From contig JAAELO010000494.1 in assembly GCA_024226555.1 (NCBI GenBank), positions 62,001 through 126,000 on the forward strand: DNA of 64,000 bases. Direction: 5' to 3'. Source of the DNA: Desulfobacterales bacterium (GTDB lineage Bacteria; Desulfobacterota; Desulfobacteria; Desulfobacterales; JAAELO01). Each line of letters begins with the position of its first letter. Within the stretch, counting starts at the first letter, position 1. Of this stretch, positions 7,989 through 52,100 are shown one piece after another. The notes under the pieces are model-generated. The model worked only from the letters and a program-made list of their open reading frames with translations, ran no database searches and was not told where the DNA came from. Position numbers and translations under genes: made by a program.

Positions 7989-8008
7989 CCCTTTTTTTCA
8001 AAATACTC

Positions 8009-8067
8009 TATTGTTTTTCCAAAACAATATAAGTAGTTCGATTAAAAAACGGTTATTAGAGATTCCC
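8009..8067 (+). repeat. Truncated dispersed element (right end only)
   Basis: GTAGTTCGATTAAAAAACGG followed by TTATTAGAGATTCCC matches the right end of the family. No left end is found before the glpK stop, so this is a deletion relic. It lies just past glpK. Confidence 0.65.
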
Positions 8068-8689
8068 TTAAATTGTCTTTTCACTTTAAAAAAAATAAAA
8101 TATCTAACCAGAGCGTAACCACGTCCTTTTTTCTATGATTGCGTAGAATTCAATCCTTTGAAAAAAAATTCCTTATTTTTTTAATGAAAAATTCAAAATT
8201 ATCCTGTTTTTTAAATATCCTTTTGGTGAAGCCAAAAAATTTAGATCTTATTTTTCATCAAGTTAATTGATTTGATGTATAATTTGGATGGCACTGTTAT
8301 ATATTCTTATAAATATTAGGAATCCTAATTAAAATTGCTCTTAAAAGCACCTTTTTTTGGGGCGAAAAAATAGCTTTTAGGCCAAAAAAGGGTATTTTTT
8401 GAAGGTATCTGTTATTATTTGACAAACCCTTTAATGGCGACCCTATTAAAAAGCATGCCAGTTGTATATATTGACTGTCCCTACCTTCCTAACAAATTTC
8501 TTTCTTATTTTTCTGAATTGTTTTTTAAAACAGCTTTGCTTTGTCATGAAACCAGAGACCTGATTCTTGGAAAATTATTTATAATTACCTGTATTTTCAA
8601 TTTTTATCATTTGATTTTGATCGTCTTGCAGGTTATCATCAGAATATATAGTTTCACCATCGGATTTGAAACCACAAAAAGGTCAAACT
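8068..8689. other. Long non-coding gap
   Basis: I see no convincing gene in this 620-bp gap. The region is AT-rich, and the open frame across 8419-8772 lacks a ribosome binding site and any recognisable motif and overlaps the next gene. A 13-bp palindrome, TTAGGAATCCTAA, near 8317-8330 is the only notable structure. The promoter of the following two-gene unit should lie near the right end. Confidence 0.4.
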
Positions 8690-9700
8690 ATGAAAAATAT
8701 TACTACAGGTATTGTTTCAGCTCTCACCTTAACAGCAATAGCGGTTATTTGCTGCTATTTTATCGTCACTAAACAAGCTGATTTTCCAACAACGCAGGAA
8801 CCATTATCTATTGGGATTTCAAAATCATTTCTCTCTATTCCGGTTTATATCGCTCAGGCCAAAGGATTTTTTGCAGAAGAGGGTATTGATATTACAATAA
8901 ACGAATACACAAGTGGAAAGATGGCTACAAAGAAACTGTTCGATGGCGAAGTCAATATATCAACAGTTGCTGATATTCCTGTAGTTTTTAACAGCTTTAA
9001 ACGGAATGATTTCAGCATCACTGCCACATTTGCCGCTTCATATCATTTTGTTAGAATGATTGCCAGAAAAGATAAAGGTATTAAAACTACTAAAGACTTA
9101 AAAGGGAAAAAAATCGGCACAAATATGAAAACAACAAGTCACTTTTTCCTTGGAACTTTTCTTACCCACAATTTGTTACCGATATCAGATGTTATACCTG
9201 TTCACTATAAAACAACTGATCTGCCGACGGCATTGGCAAACGATGAAGTGGATGCAATTTCTGTCTGGCAGCCCTATGACCACAAAGCCTGGCTCCTTTT
9301 AGGAAAAAATGCTGTAGAAATGCCAAACAAAGATATATACAGGGCAACTTTCAGTTTTGCCTCGATGAATCATTTTGCAGAAAACAACGGAGCAAGGCTG
9401 GAAAAATTCCTGAAGGCGATTAATAAAGCAGCTATATTCACCCAAACAAACAAAGAGGAATCACAGGAAATAATAACGGGTATTTTTAAAATTGATAAAG
9501 AATATATTCGTAAAATCTGGGATACTTACGTTTTTGGAATTTTTCTGGACCAGTCATTATTGTTAGGATTAGATGATGTAGCTCGCTGGGCTATTGAGAA
9601 CAGATTTACTGAAAAAAAAAAGATACCCAACTACCTCGATTATTTACACTTAGATGCATTGCAGACAGTAAAGCCTGAATCAATATCAATAATTCGTTAG
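8690..9700 (+). CDS. NMT1/SsuA-like periplasmic substrate-binding protein
   Basis: This 336-residue protein resembles the binding proteins of nitrate/sulfonate/taurine/thiamine-precursor ABC transporters. After an N-terminal hydrophobic segment (about 5-25, export signal or anchor) it has LSIGISKSFLSIPVYIA, AKGFFAEEGIDI and DLKGKKIGTN, typical of the family. The ATG at 8690 is preferred over an upstream TTG because it starts the hydrophobic segment directly. There is no permease or ATPase gene nearby. It is 11 bp from a membrane histidine kinase gene, so it more likely presents a ligand to that sensor than to a transporter. The ligand is unknown. Confidence 0.75.
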   Translation: MKNITTGIVSALTLTAIAVICCYFIVTKQADFPTTQEPLSIGISKSFLSIPVYIAQAKGFFAEEGIDITINEYTSGKMATKKLFDGEVNISTVADIPVVFNSFKRNDFSITATFAASYHFVRMIARKDKGIKTTKDLKGKKIGTNMKTTSHFFLGTFLTHNLLPISDVIPVHYKTTDLPTALANDEVDAISVWQPYDHKAWLLLGKNAVEMPNKDIYRATFSFASMNHFAENNGARLEKFLKAINKAAIFTQTNKEESQEIITGIFKIDKEYIRKIWDTYVFGIFLDQSLLLGLDDVARWAIENRFTEKKKIPNYLDYLHLDALQTVKPESISIIR

Positions 9701-9711
9701 CGGAGAAATTA

Positions 9712-11407
9712 ATGCGACTGAAAACAAGGCTCCAGATTAGTGTATCAATAACAACGTTGGTGGTTGTTCTGGTTAGCTCAGTCATATTTTTTTCCATTCA
9801 TAGAAAAAATGAGGAGAGCAGGAAAAACAGAGAGATCAGCCGTTTAATAAAAGAGATAGCTGAGTTGAAATTTATTACTCAGGAATACATGCTTCACCAC
9901 GAGGAGAGAGCATTAACTCAGTGGAAGGCTAAACACAAGTCTTTTACAAAATTTCTTAACAGAAAAACACTTGATATCCCTGACAGTAATTTAATTTTAG
10001 AAAGAATTCGTCACAATAATAAAGTTTTCAACGAAATTTTCCAGGCCTTTATATCTGATTATGAAAAAAATCGTATTTTTCCCGTTGAAAGAAATTCTGT
10101 TATACAAAGGCTGGAAAACCGAAGGGGCAATCAGTTGCTGCTAAAAGCACAGATTATGGTTTCCGATGCATATCTTCTTCATGCAATAGTAGACTCAAAA
10201 TTAGAACAACTTGAGCAGCGAGACGGCATATTGATTGGCGGTGCCTTATTTGGTCTTTTATTCTTTAGCACTTCTATATCAGTATGGATATTCAGAAGTA
10301 TTGCCATACCTGTTGCTAAACTTGAAAAAGGTGCAAGAATTGTCAGTAGCGGTAATCTTGAGTATAAAACCAGTATCGAGCAGGATGACGAAATTGGACA
10401 TTTATCACAAGCCTTCGATAAAATGACCGAAAGTTTGTCCAGTACTTTGATCTCAAAAGACTATGTGGAAAATATACTAAAGTCGATGTACGAAATGCTG
10501 ATCGTGCTCGATACAGATTCATACATCAAACTGGTTAACTCTGAGACGTTAAATCTTTTAGGGTATAAAGAAAGTCAATTATATGGAAAGGAGATCTCTG
10601 AAATAACTGATGATGATAAAATCCTCCGTTATACTACCGAAGCTGTTTCGCTATCCAAAAAAAATGACACAATCGAGATTGAAACAACCTGTATAAAAAA
10701 TAATAATGAACTAATACCTGTTCATTTTTTCGGTTCGGTTATGCATAATAAAAAAGGCGAATTTGATGGTATTATATTTGTGGCTTTAGACATAACAAAA
10801 AGGAAACAGGTTGAGGCTGAATTAATCAGCCATAAAGAAAGTCTGGAATTAATTGTTGAGACGCGGACTGAAGAAGTTAATGAAAAGAATATAAAACTGA
10901 AAAATGAGATAGCTGAACGCAATCGATTTGAGGCTGAACTTCAAAAATCGCTAACTGAGAAAGAAATTCTTCTCCGTGAAATTCACCACCGTGTAAAAAA
11001 CAACCTGACATCAATAATTTCACTCATCGGACTTCAGATGAATGACATCAATAATTTCACTCATCGGACTTCAGATGAATGAAATTACTGACAAGGATCT
11101 ATATGATCAAATGCTGGACCTTGAAAATCGTATCCGGAGTATGAGTCACACGCACCCATATGAACGTGAAACCCTATTTAATGATCTGAACCAGACTTAT
11201 TTAGATGTCATGATGCCCTCTCTGGCAGGTTTGACAATTGTTTCTTATTTATCTGCAACTGTTGCTCATCTGGGATTAACTTCGAGTGGCTTAACTGTTG
11301 GCGTTCAAATCATAGAGCCCTATCTGGAGGATCGCACTCCTATTCATATGACCAGAATAATTGAAGAGATTTTTGGTAATTTTACACCACTGCCTGATTT
11401 TGACTAA
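9712..11407 (+). pseudogene. Membrane histidine kinase broken by a 37-bp tandem duplication
   Basis: Domain order: transmembrane segment (about 14-28), periplasmic region, second transmembrane segment (about 172-192), HAMP (to about 245), PAS (about 255-370), coiled coil, then an HisKA_2-type phosphoacceptor motif EIHHRVKNN (His about 425). At 11009-11082 a 37-bp unit occurs twice in tandem; since 37 is not a multiple of three, the frame shifts and the first frame stops at 11082. Removing one unit joins the frame to the one ending at 11407. Even then no ATP-binding HATPase motifs (N, G1, G2 boxes) are visible in the last 75 residues, so the C-terminus is also lost or replaced. A good ribosome binding site (GGAG) precedes the start. 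Confidence 0.8.
11009..11082 (+). repeat. 37-bp perfect tandem duplication
   Basis: The unit runs 11009-11045 and is repeated at 11046-11082 (acatcaataatttcactc... to ...cagatgaatg). It lies inside the phosphoacceptor helix of the histidine kinase gene and causes a frameshift. The two copies are identical, so the event is recent. Confidence 0.95.
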
Positions 11408-11408
11408 A

Positions 11409-11627
11409 GGGTTCTAATAAAATTTTGCTTGAAATAACGTGAAGCAAACAAAATTAAAACTATTTTTCTTTTATGGGAACCTCTAATAATTAGAATTTTT
11501 GATGAAAAACAAGGCATAACAAAAAATAACGGGTTGATTTTACTACAGTTTTATTTTTGTTATATCTGTGTTTCGCAAAAAGATCAGTTATTAGAGATTC
11601 CCTTATTGTAGTTCGATAAAAATTCCC
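11409..11627 (+). repeat. Older dispersed element interrupted by copy 4
   Basis: GGGTTCTAATAA at 11409-11420 followed by TTTTGCTTGAAATAAC resembles the left end, and GTAGTTCGATAAAAATTCCC near 11608-11627 resembles the right end. Between them lies a complete copy with its own TTAT duplication. This is best read as an element inserted into an older element right after the kinase stop codon. Confidence 0.6.
11475..11602 (+). mobile_element. Dispersed inverted-repeat element, copy 4 (TSD TTAT)
   Basis: This is a 128-bp short-subtype copy, GGGAACCTCTAATAATTAG...AGTTATTAGAGATTCCC. TTAT flanks both sides (11471-11474, 11603-11606). Both arms carry ATAACAAAAA next to the A-rich core, so the halves pair. 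Confidence 0.9.
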
Positions 11628-11652
11628 AAAGCAATCATAGAGTAACTTTTAA

Positions 11653-12315
11653 TTACCAGGAAGTTACAAATACGCTTTTATTTTCTTCATAGTTATTAAT
11701 AAAGTTCTCTTTAATATTTTTGAGGTTATACATGTTTCCTTGTGGGTCACTGAATTCCAATAATTTCTCAAAACTTTCTTTATCAGCATAATAGAAGTCA
11801 TTATTGAAATATTCATAAAACTCTCTTGTCATACCTTTTCTTTGATATCCAACTTCCTCGCAGTGATATACATTTTGTACAATTCCATCGTAAGCAATAT
11901 CTATGAATCCTATATCAGAATCATTAATATTGATATTGTCTCCATAAATACTCTTCTCAAAACCTGACAAGTTATTATTTTTTTCAAACTCAACAATAGC
12001 CTGTTCACACGAATCATATGTTCCAACCAATTTTAATTTATAATCAGACAGACCATCATTTAATCCAAGTTTATCTTTAGCTCTCTGTAACTCTTCTTTT
12101 GTGTTGAATATCGCTATTAAAGAAATATACTCTCTAACTTTTGCTTCACTTATATATTCTTTATAATTAAATTTATCAGCATCTATGCAAAGGTCCAGTT
12201 CCTTACAAATTATATAGTTTTTATATTTTTGTGGCTCTTTTTTTAGTTTATAGTGATAAATATCAAGGCCCATTAAGTAAACTATCCTCTCCTGTTCAAT
12301 AGTTTTTCTGTTCAT
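11653..12315 (-). CDS. Hypothetical protein
   Basis: This 220-residue, acidic, soluble protein has no signal peptide or membrane segment. I do not recognise a family, although the segment MGLDIYHYKLKK (from residue 15) resembles the start of small uncharacterised accessory or phage-associated proteins, and translation might begin at that Met. The annotated ATG overlaps the stop of the upstream gene as ATGA, a translational-coupling arrangement. It probably works with the zinc-ribbon/propeller protein encoded upstream. Confidence 0.65.
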   Translation of the reverse strand: MNRKTIEQERIVYLMGLDIYHYKLKKEPQKYKNYIICKELDLCIDADKFNYKEYISEAKVREYISLIAIFNTKEELQRAKDKLGLNDGLSDYKLKLVGTYDSCEQAIVEFEKNNNLSGFEKSIYGDNININDSDIGFIDIAYDGIVQNVYHCEEVGYQRKGMTREFYEYFNNDFYYADKESFEKLLEFSDPQGNMYNLKNIKENFINNYEENKSVFVTSW

Positions 12316-13553
12316 TCTATTTTACTGATTATTTGCACACTGTTTTTTGAAATATCATAAATATACAACTCATTTCTAAAACTGACTGCAAGAATATTCT
12401 TTTGTGGAGAATAGCCTGTAACATAATGCTCGTATAATTCTCTGTTTACTGGGACAAATGTATTCTCGTCAAGCGGACTTATATATTTGGCTCTTGCTTT
12501 CCCATGTTTTTCTTCTAAAACATGAATGGTGTCAGTTATAAATAATATTTTTTTCCCTTGCATCTCCACATTGAAAACCCCATCAATATCAGTGAATTTC
12601 TTAAATTTATCACTGTCTCTTGTTATTGTACGTGCTGGCTTAGGTAGTGGATAGTGCCTGTTTATCTCTTGTAAGGTTTCTCCATTTAGCCTTAAGAAAC
12701 CAAAAGGCATGGCAGGAAGATCGTCAAAACCTTCTTCATTATTTACATATCCAAGCATAATAGATCCGTCTGTATCCCAGAATACCTCCTGAACATTGAG
12801 CCATATCTCTTCATATGATGCCACATGAATAACGGGTTCAGGTTTTCCAGGCTGTAAAGCATACATTTCCAGTTGATACTTATCACTGCCATATTTGTGC
12901 GGATGGATGCGAAGCATTCTCTTGCCAAATGGCTCAAAAAAAACCTTACCACCACTTATTCCTTCGTGATAATCAAGACTGTGCTTAGTCCATGTTTTGC
13001 TCTCAAGTGTATAGATATGCATACCTGAGCGTTTATATAACATTGTCTCCCACTCAATAAAAAGATGGTTCTCAGTTAAGTGTGATTCTCGAAAATCGAA
13101 TCCGGGTATATCAAATGTATCAATCTCCTCCCCGGTTTCTGCATCATTAATACTGCCATCTCTGTTAAAAAAACTTTTCCCATCAGGATGCCATGACTCC
13201 GGCCATTTGCAGTCACTCAAATGAGTGTTCCAGTTTTTCCCATCAAAAGCTGCCATCCAGATATAACAACTCTCAGGAAAAACAGCGAGTTTGTTACCAT
13301 CAGGGGAAAAAGAGAGTTTAAGGGCAGATAATGATGTGTCGGGAGTGGGGCTGTCGATGCTTGCATTAATAGGCTCAGCGGTACCAGTATCAAGCCATAT
13401 CCTGAATTTGACATTAATGTTCTCACTGCATTGGCTGCATTTACGACTTTCAAAGACATCGTAGTATTCAAAATCTCCCGGTGTTATCCAGAAAGGTTTC
13501 GGTTTCTTTTTTATTCTGGGTTTTATCTTTTTTTTGCAGTGAGGGCATTTCAT
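12312..13553 (-). CDS. Zinc-ribbon plus beta-propeller-like hypothetical protein
   Basis: The 413 residues begin with MKCPHCKKK, and a second Cys pair (CSQC) follows at about residues 39-42, making a four-Cys zinc ribbon split by about 30 residues. The rest has repeated propeller-like strands such as LSFSPDGNKLAVFP (about 80-93) and a similar C-terminal blade, as in TolB/WD40-like folds. There is no signal peptide, so it should be cytoplasmic. It overlaps the next gene by 4 nt and is read first. Function is unknown. Confidence 0.65.
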   Translation of the reverse strand: MKCPHCKKKIKPRIKKKPKPFWITPGDFEYYDVFESRKCSQCSENINVKFRIWLDTGTAEPINASIDSPTPDTSLSALKLSFSPDGNKLAVFPESCYIWMAAFDGKNWNTHLSDCKWPESWHPDGKSFFNRDGSINDAETGEEIDTFDIPGFDFRESHLTENHLFIEWETMLYKRSGMHIYTLESKTWTKHSLDYHEGISGGKVFFEPFGKRMLRIHPHKYGSDKYQLEMYALQPGKPEPVIHVASYEEIWLNVQEVFWDTDGSIMLGYVNNEEGFDDLPAMPFGFLRLNGETLQEINRHYPLPKPARTITRDSDKFKKFTDIDGVFNVEMQGKKILFITDTIHVLEEKHGKARAKYISPLDENTFVPVNRELYEHYVTGYSPQKNILAVSFRNELYIYDISKNSVQIISKIE

Positions 13554-13617
13554 ACTAAAGTCCTTTTTTTATTTACTGTTACAGAGAATAACAAATTTTC
13601 AAAAGCTAAATAGTCTG

Positions 13618-14418
13618 TTAATTCCTGTGTTCCACTGGTTCCAAAAAAGAACCAAAGACCCAACCAACAACTTCCGGTTTTTTTCTCCAGCTAAATTTTT
13701 GCATAATTTTGTACCAGTTATGGGTTCCCCATTTTTTCTTTGTTTCTTTTGGACCAATCTCTAAAATCTTTATTTTTGTACCGGTATTCAGTTTTTTTAA
13801 CACCCTTGAATTGGCAGATATAGCTTCTCTGACCAGAACAGAATTCATATTGATTGTAGTTCTTTCATTTACTCTGGGGACTATAAATGAATAGTTCCCT
13901 GTGTATCCTTTTTCCGGCATCTTTACCGGGGAACCGGAAACGATCCATCTTTCAAATTCCTTTTTAACAGAATCAACAGTATAAAGTATTGTTTTGGGTA
14001 GAATATTATATTTTACATCTTTTTCACCATAACTGCGGTTGTAGTAAGTATCTATCTTTAAAATTTTCTTATGCTTAAAATAAGCGTTTCCGTAAAATTC
14101 AGATACTTCATCGCTATCTTTGAAAGTTAAAAAACACAGTTCTCCTTTTTTAGTATAATAGTAAATTCGCATGTCAATTGACCCGGGATACTGGATATTG
14201 CGGATAACTTTTCTGATTCTTTTTTTAATATCATAGTATAAAAACATATGCCCCTCAAAGGTTGTATGTCCATCTTTGGTTAAGGCTGAATTATTAATAG
14301 TTTTTATTTCTTCTTTAATCTCAGAAATCAGGCTGTTGGAATCATCTGCATATGATGTATTTTGAATGATCAACAGACATATTACGATTTGAATAGATTG
14401 AATAAATAATTTTCTCAT
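13618..14418 (-). CDS. Secreted protein with C-terminal SH3-like domain
   Basis: The protein has a signal peptide (MRKLFIQSIQIVICLLIIQ, cleavage near the ADD at about 25) and 266 residues. The last 75 residues form a bacterial SH3b-type domain: VLVREAISANSRVLKKLNTG, then W/Y-rich strands and VGWVFGSFLEPV. Such domains usually bind peptidoglycan or peptides in the periplasm. The middle region is not recognised. It is followed in the same direction by the zinc-ribbon gene after 64 bp. Confidence 0.72.
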   Translation of the reverse strand: MRKLFIQSIQIVICLLIIQNTSYADDSNSLISEIKEEIKTINNSALTKDGHTTFEGHMFLYYDIKKRIRKVIRNIQYPGSIDMRIYYYTKKGELCFLTFKDSDEVSEFYGNAYFKHKKILKIDTYYNRSYGEKDVKYNILPKTILYTVDSVKKEFERWIVSGSPVKMPEKGYTGNYSFIVPRVNERTTINMNSVLVREAISANSRVLKKLNTGTKIKILEIGPKETKKKWGTHNWYKIMQKFSWRKKPEVVGWVFGSFLEPVEHRN

Positions 14419-14604
14419 CTTTAGATATCTTCTTTCTACTAGATTATTAATGATCTGATCGATTCAGTTTTCATATTACAACAATACTTTGAATTATGAA
14501 TGTTAAATCTGACACATAGATTTACTTTTAGATAGCTGGGCTTTAATTTTTTATACAAATACCCGCATTGTGGATTGACTAGTATAAACTATTAAGGAAT
14601 ACTA

Positions 14605-21932: not shown

Positions 21933-22060
21933 AGGAATCTCTAATAACCTCTCTTTTGGCGAAATACTTTGTTATTTCCAAAAAAAATGTAATAAAATCG
22001 GCTCGTTATTTTTTGAAATGCCTTGTATTTCATCCAAAATTTTAATTATTAGAGGTTCCC
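21933..22060 (-). mobile_element. Dispersed inverted-repeat element, copy 8 (TSD TATG)
   Basis: 128 bp, reverse orientation, ends AGGAATCTCTAATAACC and TTATTAGAGGTTCCC. TATG flanks both sides (21929-21932, 22061-22064). Both arms carry an ATTTC/ATTTCC variant next to the A-rich core. It inserted into the 3' end of the small gene at 22049-22210 and now supplies its stop codon. Confidence 0.9.
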
Positions 22061-24421: not shown

Positions 24422-24466
24422 CTTTTGAAGATTGCAGATAGGTTTTAAAAATCCTCAATGACATAT

Positions 24467-24599
24467 GGGAACCTCTAATAACTGATCTTTTTGCGTAATA
24501 TTGCTTTCTCAAAAAAAACAACTGTAGTAAAATCAACCCGTTGTTTTTTTCTCAGCCTTGTGTATTTTCATCAAAAATTCTATTTATTTAGAGATTCCC
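24467..24599 (-). mobile_element. Dispersed inverted-repeat element, copy 9 (TSD ATAT)
   Basis: 133 bp, reverse orientation, ends GGGAACCTCTAATAACTG and TTTAGAGATTCCC. ATAT flanks both sides (24463-24466, 24600-24603). It lies 46 bp past the acyl-CoA synthetase stop, between convergent genes. Confidence 0.9.
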
Positions 24600-24629
24600 A
24601 TATTGAAAAAAGACAAATGTTGATTAGGA

Positions 24630-26776: not shown

Positions 26777-28226
26777 TCAACCCTGAACCGCTTTCATTTT
26801 TCCTGAAGTAACAGGTAGCTCTGTTTCCATATAAAACCTTGCTGTTGTAATAATACCCTCGTAGAAAATACTTTTTTTCTCCTTTGGATTGTTTTCAAGG
26901 GCTTTTGTTGCTGTAAGTGCGCGCCATAGATGCATCCACCCAAGGATAATATCTCCCATAACCATTAGAAAAGGATGTGCATTGGCAAATGCGGAAGCAT
27001 ATTTTTCGCTCAAGGCTGCTTTTCCAATTGTCATGGCGGTTAGTCCAAGCTCTTCAATCTGCTCTTCAAGGATATTGGCAAGGGATCAGAGACTCCTTTT
27101 CCTTTGCAGCAGCAATGACTTTACCTATTTCACCCAGAAAATTTAAAAATAATTTACCATTTTCCATACCCATTTTCCGACCAAGGAGATCTATGGCCTG
27201 GATGCCGTCAGTACCTTCATTGATAGTTGCTATTTTCACATCCCTTGCCAGCTGCTCAACCGGGAATTCACTTGTAAATCCATAACCACCGAAGACCTGA
27301 ATAGCTTCAACACAAACATCAAATCCTTTTTTTGCGCAATAGGCTTTAACCACAGGAGTCATAAGTTCAATCATACCCTCACAAAGCTTCCTTTCTTCAG
27401 GGTCGTTTGAAAGATCCTTTTTATCAAAACAGTAATATAGTAAACAAAACTTCTCATGCCGTCCACATTAGCTTTCATCCAGGTCAGCATTCTCCGAACA
27501 TCCGGGTGTTGGATAATTGGGATAGATTTTGCATCAGGGTCTTTGGCACTTAAAAGATCCTTTCCCTGAACTCTATGCTTTGCGTACTCCAAAGCATAGA
27601 GGTAGGCCAATGAAGCTGTTGTGCTTCCCTGGAAACCTACATTAAGGCGTGCTTCATTCATCATATGGAACATGATCTGAAGACCTTTGTTTTCCTCTCC
27701 AAGTAGAAACCCCCGGCATTTACCACTTGAACCAAGGGACATGGAGCAGGTGCAGATCCGTGCACCCCCATTTTTTTCTCAATTCCCACGAACTGGATAT
27801 CGTTATCTTCACCGATTGTCCCATCTTCATTAACCCAAAGTTTTGGAACAATGAATATGGATATCCCCCGGCTTCCGGCAGTAGCACCTTCAATTCTGGC
27901 AAGCACTGGGTGGATGATATTATCTGTCATGTCATGGTCACCCCCTGTGATAAAAATCTTGTTTCCAGTGATATTGTAGGTTCCATCCACATTTTTTTTG
28001 GCTGAGGTGTTAAGTGCTCCCACATCCGATCCAGCTTCAGGTTCAGTAAGTACCATAGTGCCTGCCCACTTTGAGGTATATAAATTCTCAAGAAAGATAT
28101 CTTTTAGCTGATCAGTTCCAAAAAGTTCGATCATTTTGCCTGTACCATGGCCCATATGAGTATCCACTAAGGGAGTAATTGGCACCTATCACATAGTCCA
28201 TAATAGTCATTGAAACAGAATAGGGT
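26777..28226 (-). pseudogene. Acyl-CoA dehydrogenase, multiply frameshifted and 5'-truncated
   Basis: Consecutive frames together read as one acyl-CoA dehydrogenase of the long class with a C-terminal extension. Recognisable parts are GTMVLTEPEAGSDVGAL, ITGNKIFITGGDHD, the helical domain GFQGSTTASLAYLYALEYA, and the late motif QVFGGYGFTSEFPVEQLARD. Frame changes are seen near 28157, 27730, 27436 and 27083. On the upstream side homology starts abruptly at IPYSVSMTIMDYVIGAN, so roughly the first 80-130 residues are missing. The break falls where an old repeat element begins (about 28226). The enzyme cannot be made. Confidence 0.88.
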
Positions 28227-28518
28227 ATGAGAAATAAATAACGATATGCTTTGTTTATAAAAGCTTTTATTTTAGGGAACCTCTAATAACTGCTCTTTTG
28301 GCGAAATCCTTTGTTGTTTCCAAAAAAAACTGTAATAAAGTCGGCTCGTTATTTTTGGAAATGCCTTGTATTTCATCCCAAATTCTAATTATTAGAGGAT
28401 CCCTTTATAAAGTTTACATTTCTTTTTTTTGAAGAGGCTCCGTTGTTTTGTTTAACAACTTAAAAATTTCCTATAAAACAAAACTAAAGCCTTTTGTTTT
28501 ATAGGCAGTTATTAGATT
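28226..28518 (+). repeat. Older dispersed element split by copy 10
   Basis: To the left, AAATAAATAACGA ... TTTATAAAAGCTTTTATTTTA matches the core of the long subtype. To the right it resumes as TTTATAAAGTTTACATTTC and ends with GCAGTTATTAGATTCCC. The left terminus is absent and joins the truncated acyl-CoA dehydrogenase. About 50 bp of unrelated sequence is present near 28433-28500. Confidence 0.7.
28275..28403 (-). mobile_element. Dispersed inverted-repeat element, copy 10 (TSD TTTA), nested
   Basis: 129 bp, reverse orientation, ends GGGAACCTCTAATAACTG and TTATTAGAGGATCCC. TTTA flanks both sides (28271-28274, 28404-28407). Deleting the copy and one TTTA restores the normal core sequence of the surrounding older element, so the insertion point is proven to the base. 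Confidence 0.93.
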
Positions 28519-32118: not shown

Positions 32119-32247
32119 GTAATCTATAATAACTGATCTTTTTGCGAAACACAGCGTTATAACAAAAATAAAACTGTAGTAAAATCAACCCGTTGTTTTC
32201 TGTTATGCCTTGTTTTTCATCAAAAATTTTAATTATTAGAGATTCCC
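32119..32247 (-). mobile_element. Dispersed inverted-repeat element, copy 11 (TSD ATTA)
   Basis: 129 bp, reverse orientation. The left end is worn (GTAATCTATAATAACTG) and the right is intact (TTATTAGAGATTCCC). ATTA flanks both sides (32115-32118, 32248-32251). Both arms carry ATAACA. It lies upstream of the divergent lnt and lpoB genes. Confidence 0.82.
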
Positions 32248-32458
32248 ATTAATAAAAACATGGTTTTTTTTTAAAAAAAACTCATTTTATTAAATGAGTA
32301 TGAAACGCAACACAGGTTATAATAGTTAATATATGGTAATGGAATTTGTATCAATAAGAGTTATTGATATTGACAATTTTGCTTGATGTTCGCTAAAATG
32401 ACTGGAGTTTATAAAAATAGTAATTCTTTTTTAACTTCAGTATGTAAAAATTTAAATA

Positions 32459-49119: not shown

Positions 49120-52100
49120 ATGAAGTTAATATTAAGGTGTTTTTTCTTCTCAACACTTTTCTTACTATTTTCATACAGTGCTTTTTCAGCACCTGCAAAG
49201 AACGTAGACACTGTTACAATGTCCTTTGAAGATTTTCTGAAATTGAGAGAGAAGGCGAAAGATAAGGAGATTAAAAGGAGTAAGCTCTTTTCCTATGAGA
49301 AGGCGATACTAACGGGAAAGGGTTTTATAAAGAAAAGTGAATATTTTATTAATTTTAATTCTAATATTTCTGTTACCTCCCATGAAGACAGAGACATTCT
49401 GGTGCCATTTTTATCCTCAGATCTAAACCTTGAATCTTTGACTGTTGATGGATTTGAATCTACCTGGATCAAAGAGGGAAAATCTTACAAGGTATATATT
49501 AAAGGTTCTGGAAAGCATGTTGTTAAGGCTAAGTTTACAGTAAAGCTAAGTGCGAAGGTCTGGCCAAGAAGTTTGTATCTGCCACTAATAAAAATACCTG
49601 GAAGCAGGATAAAAATAAAGGTTCCTGATAGGAATATTTCGGCTGAGTTTGACAGGGGAATAGCTTTTGAAAGTGCTCTTGGTAATGAGATTAATGGATA
49701 TATCCCTTCTGTTTCTGGTGTAACAATCAAATGGTTAAAGAAAAATACAACGAAGAAAAAAGTTCCTCTTAAGATGAATGCTACTGTTCATACGTATATA
49801 TCCCTTGAAGAAAAAGGTGCTTCGAGTGTTAGTGAGGTAAATTTCAAGGTTTTAAAAGGTGAAACAAACTTTTTTAAAATACGTGTTCCATCATCGGTTG
49901 ACATTTTGAATATTTTACCAAAAAATGGTGGTAAGCCTGTTTCCCAGTGGTTCTCAGAGAAAAGCGGCGATGATACAATAGTAAATATTTTTTCATCATA
50001 TAAGCAGAACAGATCTTTTGGAGTGAGGCTTTACTACGAAAAAACAGAAACAAAAGCTAATTTTATTTATGAAACCGCTCATATAAAACCTTTAAAAGTT
50101 GAACGCTTTGAAGAGCTTATTGCTGTTGGTTCTGGATCAAATGTTGAGATTGGAGAAGAGAGTGGTGAAAAAATTGAAAGGCGTGATGTTCGGTTTTTAC
50201 CTGCTGAGATCCAACGGGTTGCAAAATCCAATGCTCTTTTTTATTACAAAGCAAAAGCTTTGGATTTCAATTTAAAATTTAATGTTAAAAGTCATGAAAA
50301 TGCTCCTGTTTTAAAAATGAGAGTCAAAAGAGTTGATGTTGATAGTGTTATTACCAAAGAGGGAACGGTAATGACAAAAATTAAATATTCTGTTCAAAAC
50401 AACCAGGAACAGTATTTAAAAATACAGATACCCGAAAAATCAAAGCTTTTGTCTGCATTTTTAAGTGGAAAAGAGGTTCAACCTACAATTGATGATGACT
50501 ATTATCTAATCCCTATTACAAAATCCACGGGTAAGACATTTCCGGTTGAAATTGCCTTTTTGACTGAAAAAAAGGCTTTTAGTTCAATTGGTTATTGTTC
50601 TTTCGACCTTCCGTTAAAAGACATTCCTGTTGGTGAACTCTACTGGAATCTATACACCCCATCGGATTATCAACCAATATATTTTGGTGGAAATATAGTT
50701 AGAAGAAAACACAGTTTTTTTGATAATATCGCATTTTTTGTTCAAAATTCTTCTGAAACATCAAATGTTGCCTATGCAGGTGGTGGTTTTGAAAGTCAGA
50801 ATTATGAATATAACACAAAGGGACTTAGGAAAAGATTCAAATCAAAGGCTGGATATTTTAGCAAAAAAAATGAATCGTTAAATAATCAGATTAAAGTTAG
50901 TATTCCTGTTACCGGAACTAAATATAGATTTTCATCATACCTTGTGAATGGATTTTCTCCTGAGATATCATTTTTTTATATTAATGATAGTATAAAAAAC
51001 TTTATATCCTTTTTTGTAAGTATTTTCATGTTCTGTTTCACCTTTATTACACTGATATTTTTTATTGAGAGAGCTTCAATTCCTGAAAATCTTAAGAATA
51101 ATAAAATATATATATCTTTATGTGGAATTGCTTTTTTAATTTTAGTAGTTCTAATGACTTTTTCATTTGGAATATACTGGTGGCTATACAGCAGTGTTGT
51201 TAATGCATTTAAAGTATTTACAATTTATCAAAACAGATTGGTATCTAAAAGAATGAAAACTGAGTTTTCAGGATTTAAGAGATTTATAGCTGATGCGTAT
51301 ATTGTGGTTTTAATTTTAACTCTGCTAAGCTCAAGTAATAATACATTTCAACTGGTATTTTGCACATTATCTATAACATTTCATATCCTTCTGCCTGTTC
51401 TTATCAAAATCTTATCAAAGATTTTAGATTCGTTCCTGTCAATTTTCAGAGCGAAACCCAGTAAGGCTGTTCCACCAGCTCTTTTAATTATTTTTGTACT
51501 ATGCGGCTCTCTTCTATTTAATGAAAATGCCTTTGCAAACAAAGGAACTGTAACTCTTTCATATAAAACTGTTGAGAAAATGCTAAAGAAAATTGAGGAT
51601 AAAAAAAGAGCTGATCTGACTAAAATAGATAAAGATTATATATTTGGAAATGTTGCGATAAAGGGGCACATCTCCAAAAAATATGCAAAAATGAATCTTT
51701 CTGTTCCTGTTAGTATCATTTCAGATAATTATGTTATTGTTCCAATGTTTTCATCTGACATATCTATTATGAAAGCAACATTTCGCGGAAGACCCCTTTC
51801 TCTTTTCAACAAAAATAATCAGATCTGTTTTGAAACCCGGAAATTAAAAGGCAGGAAAGGACTTCTAAAAGTTGATTTAATAGTTCCTGTTAAAGAGAAA
51901 GGCGGAGTCCATGAATTTGCTCTAAATACCAGCCTTTTAAGAGGTGGAACTGTTGAATTTGGCTTTGAAAAGGAGATTAAATCTATCAATCTTAAAGGCG
52001 TTACCTGGCAAACAAGAACTGGTCAAAAGATAAAAGCTGCTCTTGGAAGATTTAAAACACTTCGGGGAGAACTTGCAACTTTTAAAAGGGAGAATGATGC

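Follow-up and report, generated by a model that had tools for sequence, protein, structure and literature searches.

A 37-bp tandem duplication in the front half of a probably split histidine kinase gene: probable gene decay after rearrangement and no kinase switch

We analysed a 64,000-nucleotide stretch of DNA (the window) in which a gene for an NMT1/SsuA-like periplasmic substrate-binding protein (8666-9700, forward strand; Pfam PF09084, 5.2e-26) forms an open frame directly upstream of an interrupted histidine kinase gene. Matches to HAMP, PAS_9 and HisKA_2 assigned 9712-11146 on the forward strand to the N-terminal half of a HisKA_2 histidine kinase, consisting of an N-terminal sensor region, HAMP, PAS and the start of HisKA_2 up to about NRIRSM(S), and interrupted by the second unit of a 37-bp tandem duplication. 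Two open reading frames cover this region. ORF1 (9712-11082, 456 aa) encodes HAMP, PAS (PAS_9) and HisKA_2 positions 1-26 including the phosphoacceptor motif EIHHRVKNN, and ORF2 (11042-11407) encodes HisKA_2 positions 10-48 followed by the last 86 or so residues of an amidase-signature protein (11147-11407, forward strand, stop at 11405-11407). A complete HisKA_2 with a HATPase domain in the same frame was not found in these two frames, where HisKA_2 positions 1-26 and then 10-48 were the only matches. The limits of the HisKA_2 and amidase alignments placed the rearrangement breakpoint at which kinase is joined to amidase tail in a zone of six codons (11141-11158, probably 11144-11149). Repeat and own-genome searches identified a MITE-like element of about 134 bp with inverted ends and many copies in the genome at 11472-11605, and an Rfam search of 8000-14500 gave no matches.

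TRF run on the window reported a period of 37 with a 100% match at 11006-11082. Together with a repeat search and a duplication scan of the same genome this resolved two identical 37-bp units on the forward strand, unit 1 at 11006-11042 and unit 2 at 11043-11079 with identity continuing to 11082, confirming the two units described in an earlier interpretation made from the letters alone (the sequence-only reading). The identity between the copies spans 40 bp and the register of the unit may slide by 3 bp, so 11009-11082 is an equally valid set of coordinates. The scan for perfect tandem duplications (unit length 12-399 bp) covered the window and 60 further stretches of the genome, a sample of 61 loci and 1,136,200 bases (about 15% of the 7.69-Mb genome) that was not random, as the contigs were chosen from those met in earlier searches. 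Ten perfect tandem duplications were detected, and the 37-bp unit was the sole one of at least 18 bp, the next largest being 17 bp. A perfect duplication of 37 bp is far beyond random expectation. The single-copy sequence is bordered on both sides by TGA, a 3-bp border repeat that appears to be of the sort used by slippage. The sequence-only reading had proposed a slippage or recombination event, and the perfect copies and the TGA at both single-copy borders support a duplication event; we infer slippage between the TGA repeats in a fragment that was free of selection.

As 37 is not a multiple of three, the copy number of the unit changes the reading frame of the kinase. Translation remains in frame through the first copy (EIHHRVKNNLTSIISLIGLQMN), while the second copy loses the frame and is read as DINNFTHRTSDE, followed by the premature TGA of ORF1 at 11080-11082 (forward strand, ORF list), which is thus caused by the duplication. 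The frameshift had been placed just after EIHHRVKNN, and it does come soon after the motif, but the shift takes effect only within the second copy. When one unit was removed by script a single frame of 552 residues was open to 11407. In this one-unit form the distance from EIHHR to NRIRSM was 37 residues, equal to that in L010 (the pattern was present in one of three comparison stretches), and for this reason the one-unit state is probably ancestral. The expectation that the one-unit frame continues to 11407 was therefore correct as to its length but not its content, since its last 86 or so codons encode amidase and not kinase.

The amidase assignment came from comparison with 39 other genomes, none from the same family. 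ORF2 had matches in three of them, and the tail was 50% identical over 74, 47% over 60 and 39% over 87 positions to the C-terminal parts of three PF01425 amidases (L016, 8e-103; L017, 1.8e-94; L018, 8.3e-90). These alignments began at ORF2 residue 35-36 or 28. The tail aligned to residues 389-477 of the 495-residue L016 amidase and is not a complete amidase domain. It resembles the amidase signature family in its C-terminal part and differs from it by the absence of the first 390 or so residues, which we take to include the active-site region. Searching the genome with the whole L016 amidase returned three rows, the window tail, a gene on C627 that sits in a 476-aa frame and a gene on C542 that encodes a whole PF01425 protein, presumably resembling GatA. 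The N-terminal remainder of the window amidase was not found in this search.

The sequence-only reading had suggested that the kinase could be switched on and off by loss and gain of a unit, and had also suspected that the gene was already degraded. A locus slipping back and forth between one copy and two copies of the 37-bp unit would be a phase-variable switch, and the frame is indeed restored with one unit. Spontaneous duplications of this kind, arising inside an open reading frame and breaking it, are reported to control phase variation in the pneumococcal capsule genes cap8E, tts and the type 3 locus (Waite et al. 2001, 2003, as cited in PMC4022640). The product of the one-unit form would be a 552-residue kinase-amidase fusion without an ATPase domain, however, and the matching ATPase half is encoded elsewhere, on contig C753. 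In the pneumococcal genes the loss of a copy reportedly restores a whole gene, whereas the restored frame of the window encodes a chimera lacking the ATPase and not a whole functional protein. Losing one unit thus cannot restore the kinase, and the sequence as assembled contradicts a switch as it leaves nothing to switch on. The switch was rejected on these grounds and we regard it as highly improbable, while the suspicion that the gene was degraded is supported. A tempting call of phase switching can in this way be decided by examining the product of the restored frame.

The missing half of the kinase was identified with a HisKA_2 profile search of the genome. This search returned five rows, of which two were nearly whole domains on C249 and C332, two were the window pieces and one was an orphan HisKA_2 end on C753 (positions 40-76, at 51817-51927). 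The C753 open reading frame is 167 residues long from a TTG start and encodes HisKA_2 positions 43-76 and HATPase_c. It is preceded by a microbial PARG gene (PF10021) on the opposite strand, and the gene behind it encodes 651 residues with REC, PAS and HATPase domains, including two REC stretches. Two palindrome-like stretches, AGTGTTTAATCAACACT and AGTGTAGTCAATACACT, lie between the PARG start and the kinase half (L102 11764-11812, C753 about 51.76-51.81 kb) and look like operator sites. An earlier candidate, deletion of the ATPase half, was dropped once the ATPase half had been located on C753. In the HisKA_2 profile the two pieces complement each other, the window piece ending at position 48 and the C753 piece starting at 43 (or 40), with an overlap of six codons, and both remain open frames apart from the duplication. 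Their GC contents are 0.352 and 0.356 (amidase tail 0.402, whole window 0.331), which points only weakly to a common origin. The HisKA_2 spacing was 45 residues in 7 of 10 stretches and the other three lacked the second pattern (two of the ten were from the same genome); for this count nine window rows with the two-unit sequence were excluded for containing stops, identical stretches were collapsed into one and short stretches were omitted. The joined halves also gave a spacing of 45, but by construction as the cut was chosen, and this shows only that joining without loss is possible. The C753 half had matches in 9 of the 39 other genomes.

Relatives were sought with the sensor region of the kinase in 291 genomes of the class, and it was found in 14 including its own. 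The other 13 genomes held 14 sensor loci (L119-L132), 13 of which also had an NMT1 homologue. The HHRVKN motif was present in one of the 14, L126 of genome G248, and was not seen in the other 13 within the stretches compared. In L126 an NMT1 gene, a single 486-aa kinase and a REC gene share one strand and fit into 3.5 kb. The kinase has HAMP, HisKA_2 1-76 and HATPase_c and matches both the window and the C753 pieces, with identities of 25% (sensor), 44% and 43% for the kinase pieces, 33% for NMT1 and 53% for REC; at 25-44% in the kinase pieces G248 is a distant relative. The G248 locus (HisKA_2 PF07568 with NMT1 and a REC partner) is thus like the window in its sensor, HAMP, HHRVKNN phosphoacceptor and neighbouring gene order. 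It differs in that the window gene is divided between two contigs, includes a PAS domain, for which the G248 kinase gave no match, and carries the frameshifting 37-bp duplication. An IS1 transposase open reading frame (PF03400, 9e-19) was also seen between NMT1 and the kinase of G248 (L126 2057-2449). In five of 13 distinct loci, one of them in the window's own genome, a REC gene was directly behind or fused to the HisKA_2 kinase.

In G248 the genes for binding protein, intact kinase and REC protein are still clustered within 3.5 kb, and the two halves are therefore probably one gene that was split by rearrangement. The relatives and the gene order support, without proving, a single ancestral operon that was cut in the kinase, and we infer that the halves were once one gene and that the order NMT1, kinase, REC existed in this lineage. 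Alternatively the halves could derive from two separate kinases, each truncated independently of the other, as complementary profile positions are no proof of common origin, the 39 compared genomes included none of the same family, a search of genome contigs for close relatives gave 17 stretches matching the pattern and none that was confirmed, and most sensors of this type in relatives were not seen with HisKA_2. However, the pieces meet within six codons, the HisKA_2 search of the genome gave just one orphan front and one orphan back, and G248 has the same gene order unsplit, and we therefore give this alternative little credence.

A further concern was that the duplication, the kinase-amidase and C753 junctions, or both were artefacts of a fragmented assembly, which comprises 904 contigs and contains a dispersed element in many copies. 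No second perfect tandem duplication of comparable size occurred in the 1.136 Mb scanned, suggesting that the assembly does not tend to produce them. Both junction regions were single-copy in the genome (besides themselves one 33-bp and one 52-bp weak match were found), and false junctions would need two errors at matching places in one gene. An assembly error is thus improbable.

The reading that we hold to be probable from these comparisons is ordinary pseudogene decay, following a rearrangement that cut a kinase operon in HisKA_2, plus a slippage-type duplication, with no switch. An operon of NMT1-type binding protein, HisKA_2 histidine kinase and REC-PAS-kinase would have been cut inside HisKA_2 by a genome rearrangement. 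The front half lies in the window, where its one-unit frame runs on into the amidase tail, and a complementary back half that includes the ATPase lies on C753, with the REC gene behind it. The 37-bp duplication frameshifts the front half some 60 bp upstream of the break. Loss of one unit would only lengthen a kinase-amidase chimera without an ATPase, and for this reason the locus is not a kinase switch. The near-lossless split of what is probably one kinase over two contigs is a clean marker of rearrangement in a repeat-rich genome; apart from this the locus represents ordinary gene decay.

The half that fits the window breakpoint lies on C753 at about 51.82 kb, and the resemblance of the window sequence to RSMSLVHE in the intact G248 kinase suggests that the cut was probably just after RSM or RSMS. 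Beyond the window junction the contig continues for 59.7 kb, and 51.8 kb of C753 precede the other junction; the halves are therefore at least 111 kb apart if they still face each other; otherwise an inversion or translocation separated them. Under a simple inversion, or a reciprocal translocation involving the amidase gene, an amidase N-terminal half would be expected before the C753 half; this was rejected, as the PARG gene is there instead. With the amidase front absent from this position, three breaks or a later loss are required. Duplication and break could also be products of one event, in which a broken chromosome was repaired by template switching and a duplication bordered by microhomology was left next to a multi-way junction. 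We consider a single event unlikely; the break was found by following up the duplication, and their nearness is therefore weak evidence for a joint origin. If true, the other half of such a junction would survive almost without loss elsewhere in the genome.

An insertion of the MITE-like element at the break was also considered and rejected, as none was found at the window junction, where the nearest element begins at 11472, about 330 bp past the breakpoint, and the fragment nearest to the C753 junction (L102 10487-10518) is beyond PARG. The element gave at least 61 match rows in the genome, with 40 of 1401 first-look candidates scored. Sites matching it at E<=1e-10 numbered 11 over 126 kb for C493 and 5 over 180 kb for C398, and by extrapolation a few hundred copies genome-wide are plausible. 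The MITE end TTATTAGAGATTCCCTTA with up to three mismatches had 18 matches in the window compared to 0.27 expected. Identical 18-bp MITE ends in the same orientation (8053-8070 and 11588-11605, 3535 bp apart) flank the NMT1-kinase remnant, and further MITE-like copies were seen at 21934-22060, 24463-24602, 28274-28403 and 32121-32249. Elsewhere in the window, at 27371-28185 on the reverse strand, two overlapping open reading frames in different frames encode the middle of an acyl-CoA dehydrogenase (PF02770) and its C-terminal part (PF00441), and their arrangement suggests that this is perhaps another frameshifted gene.
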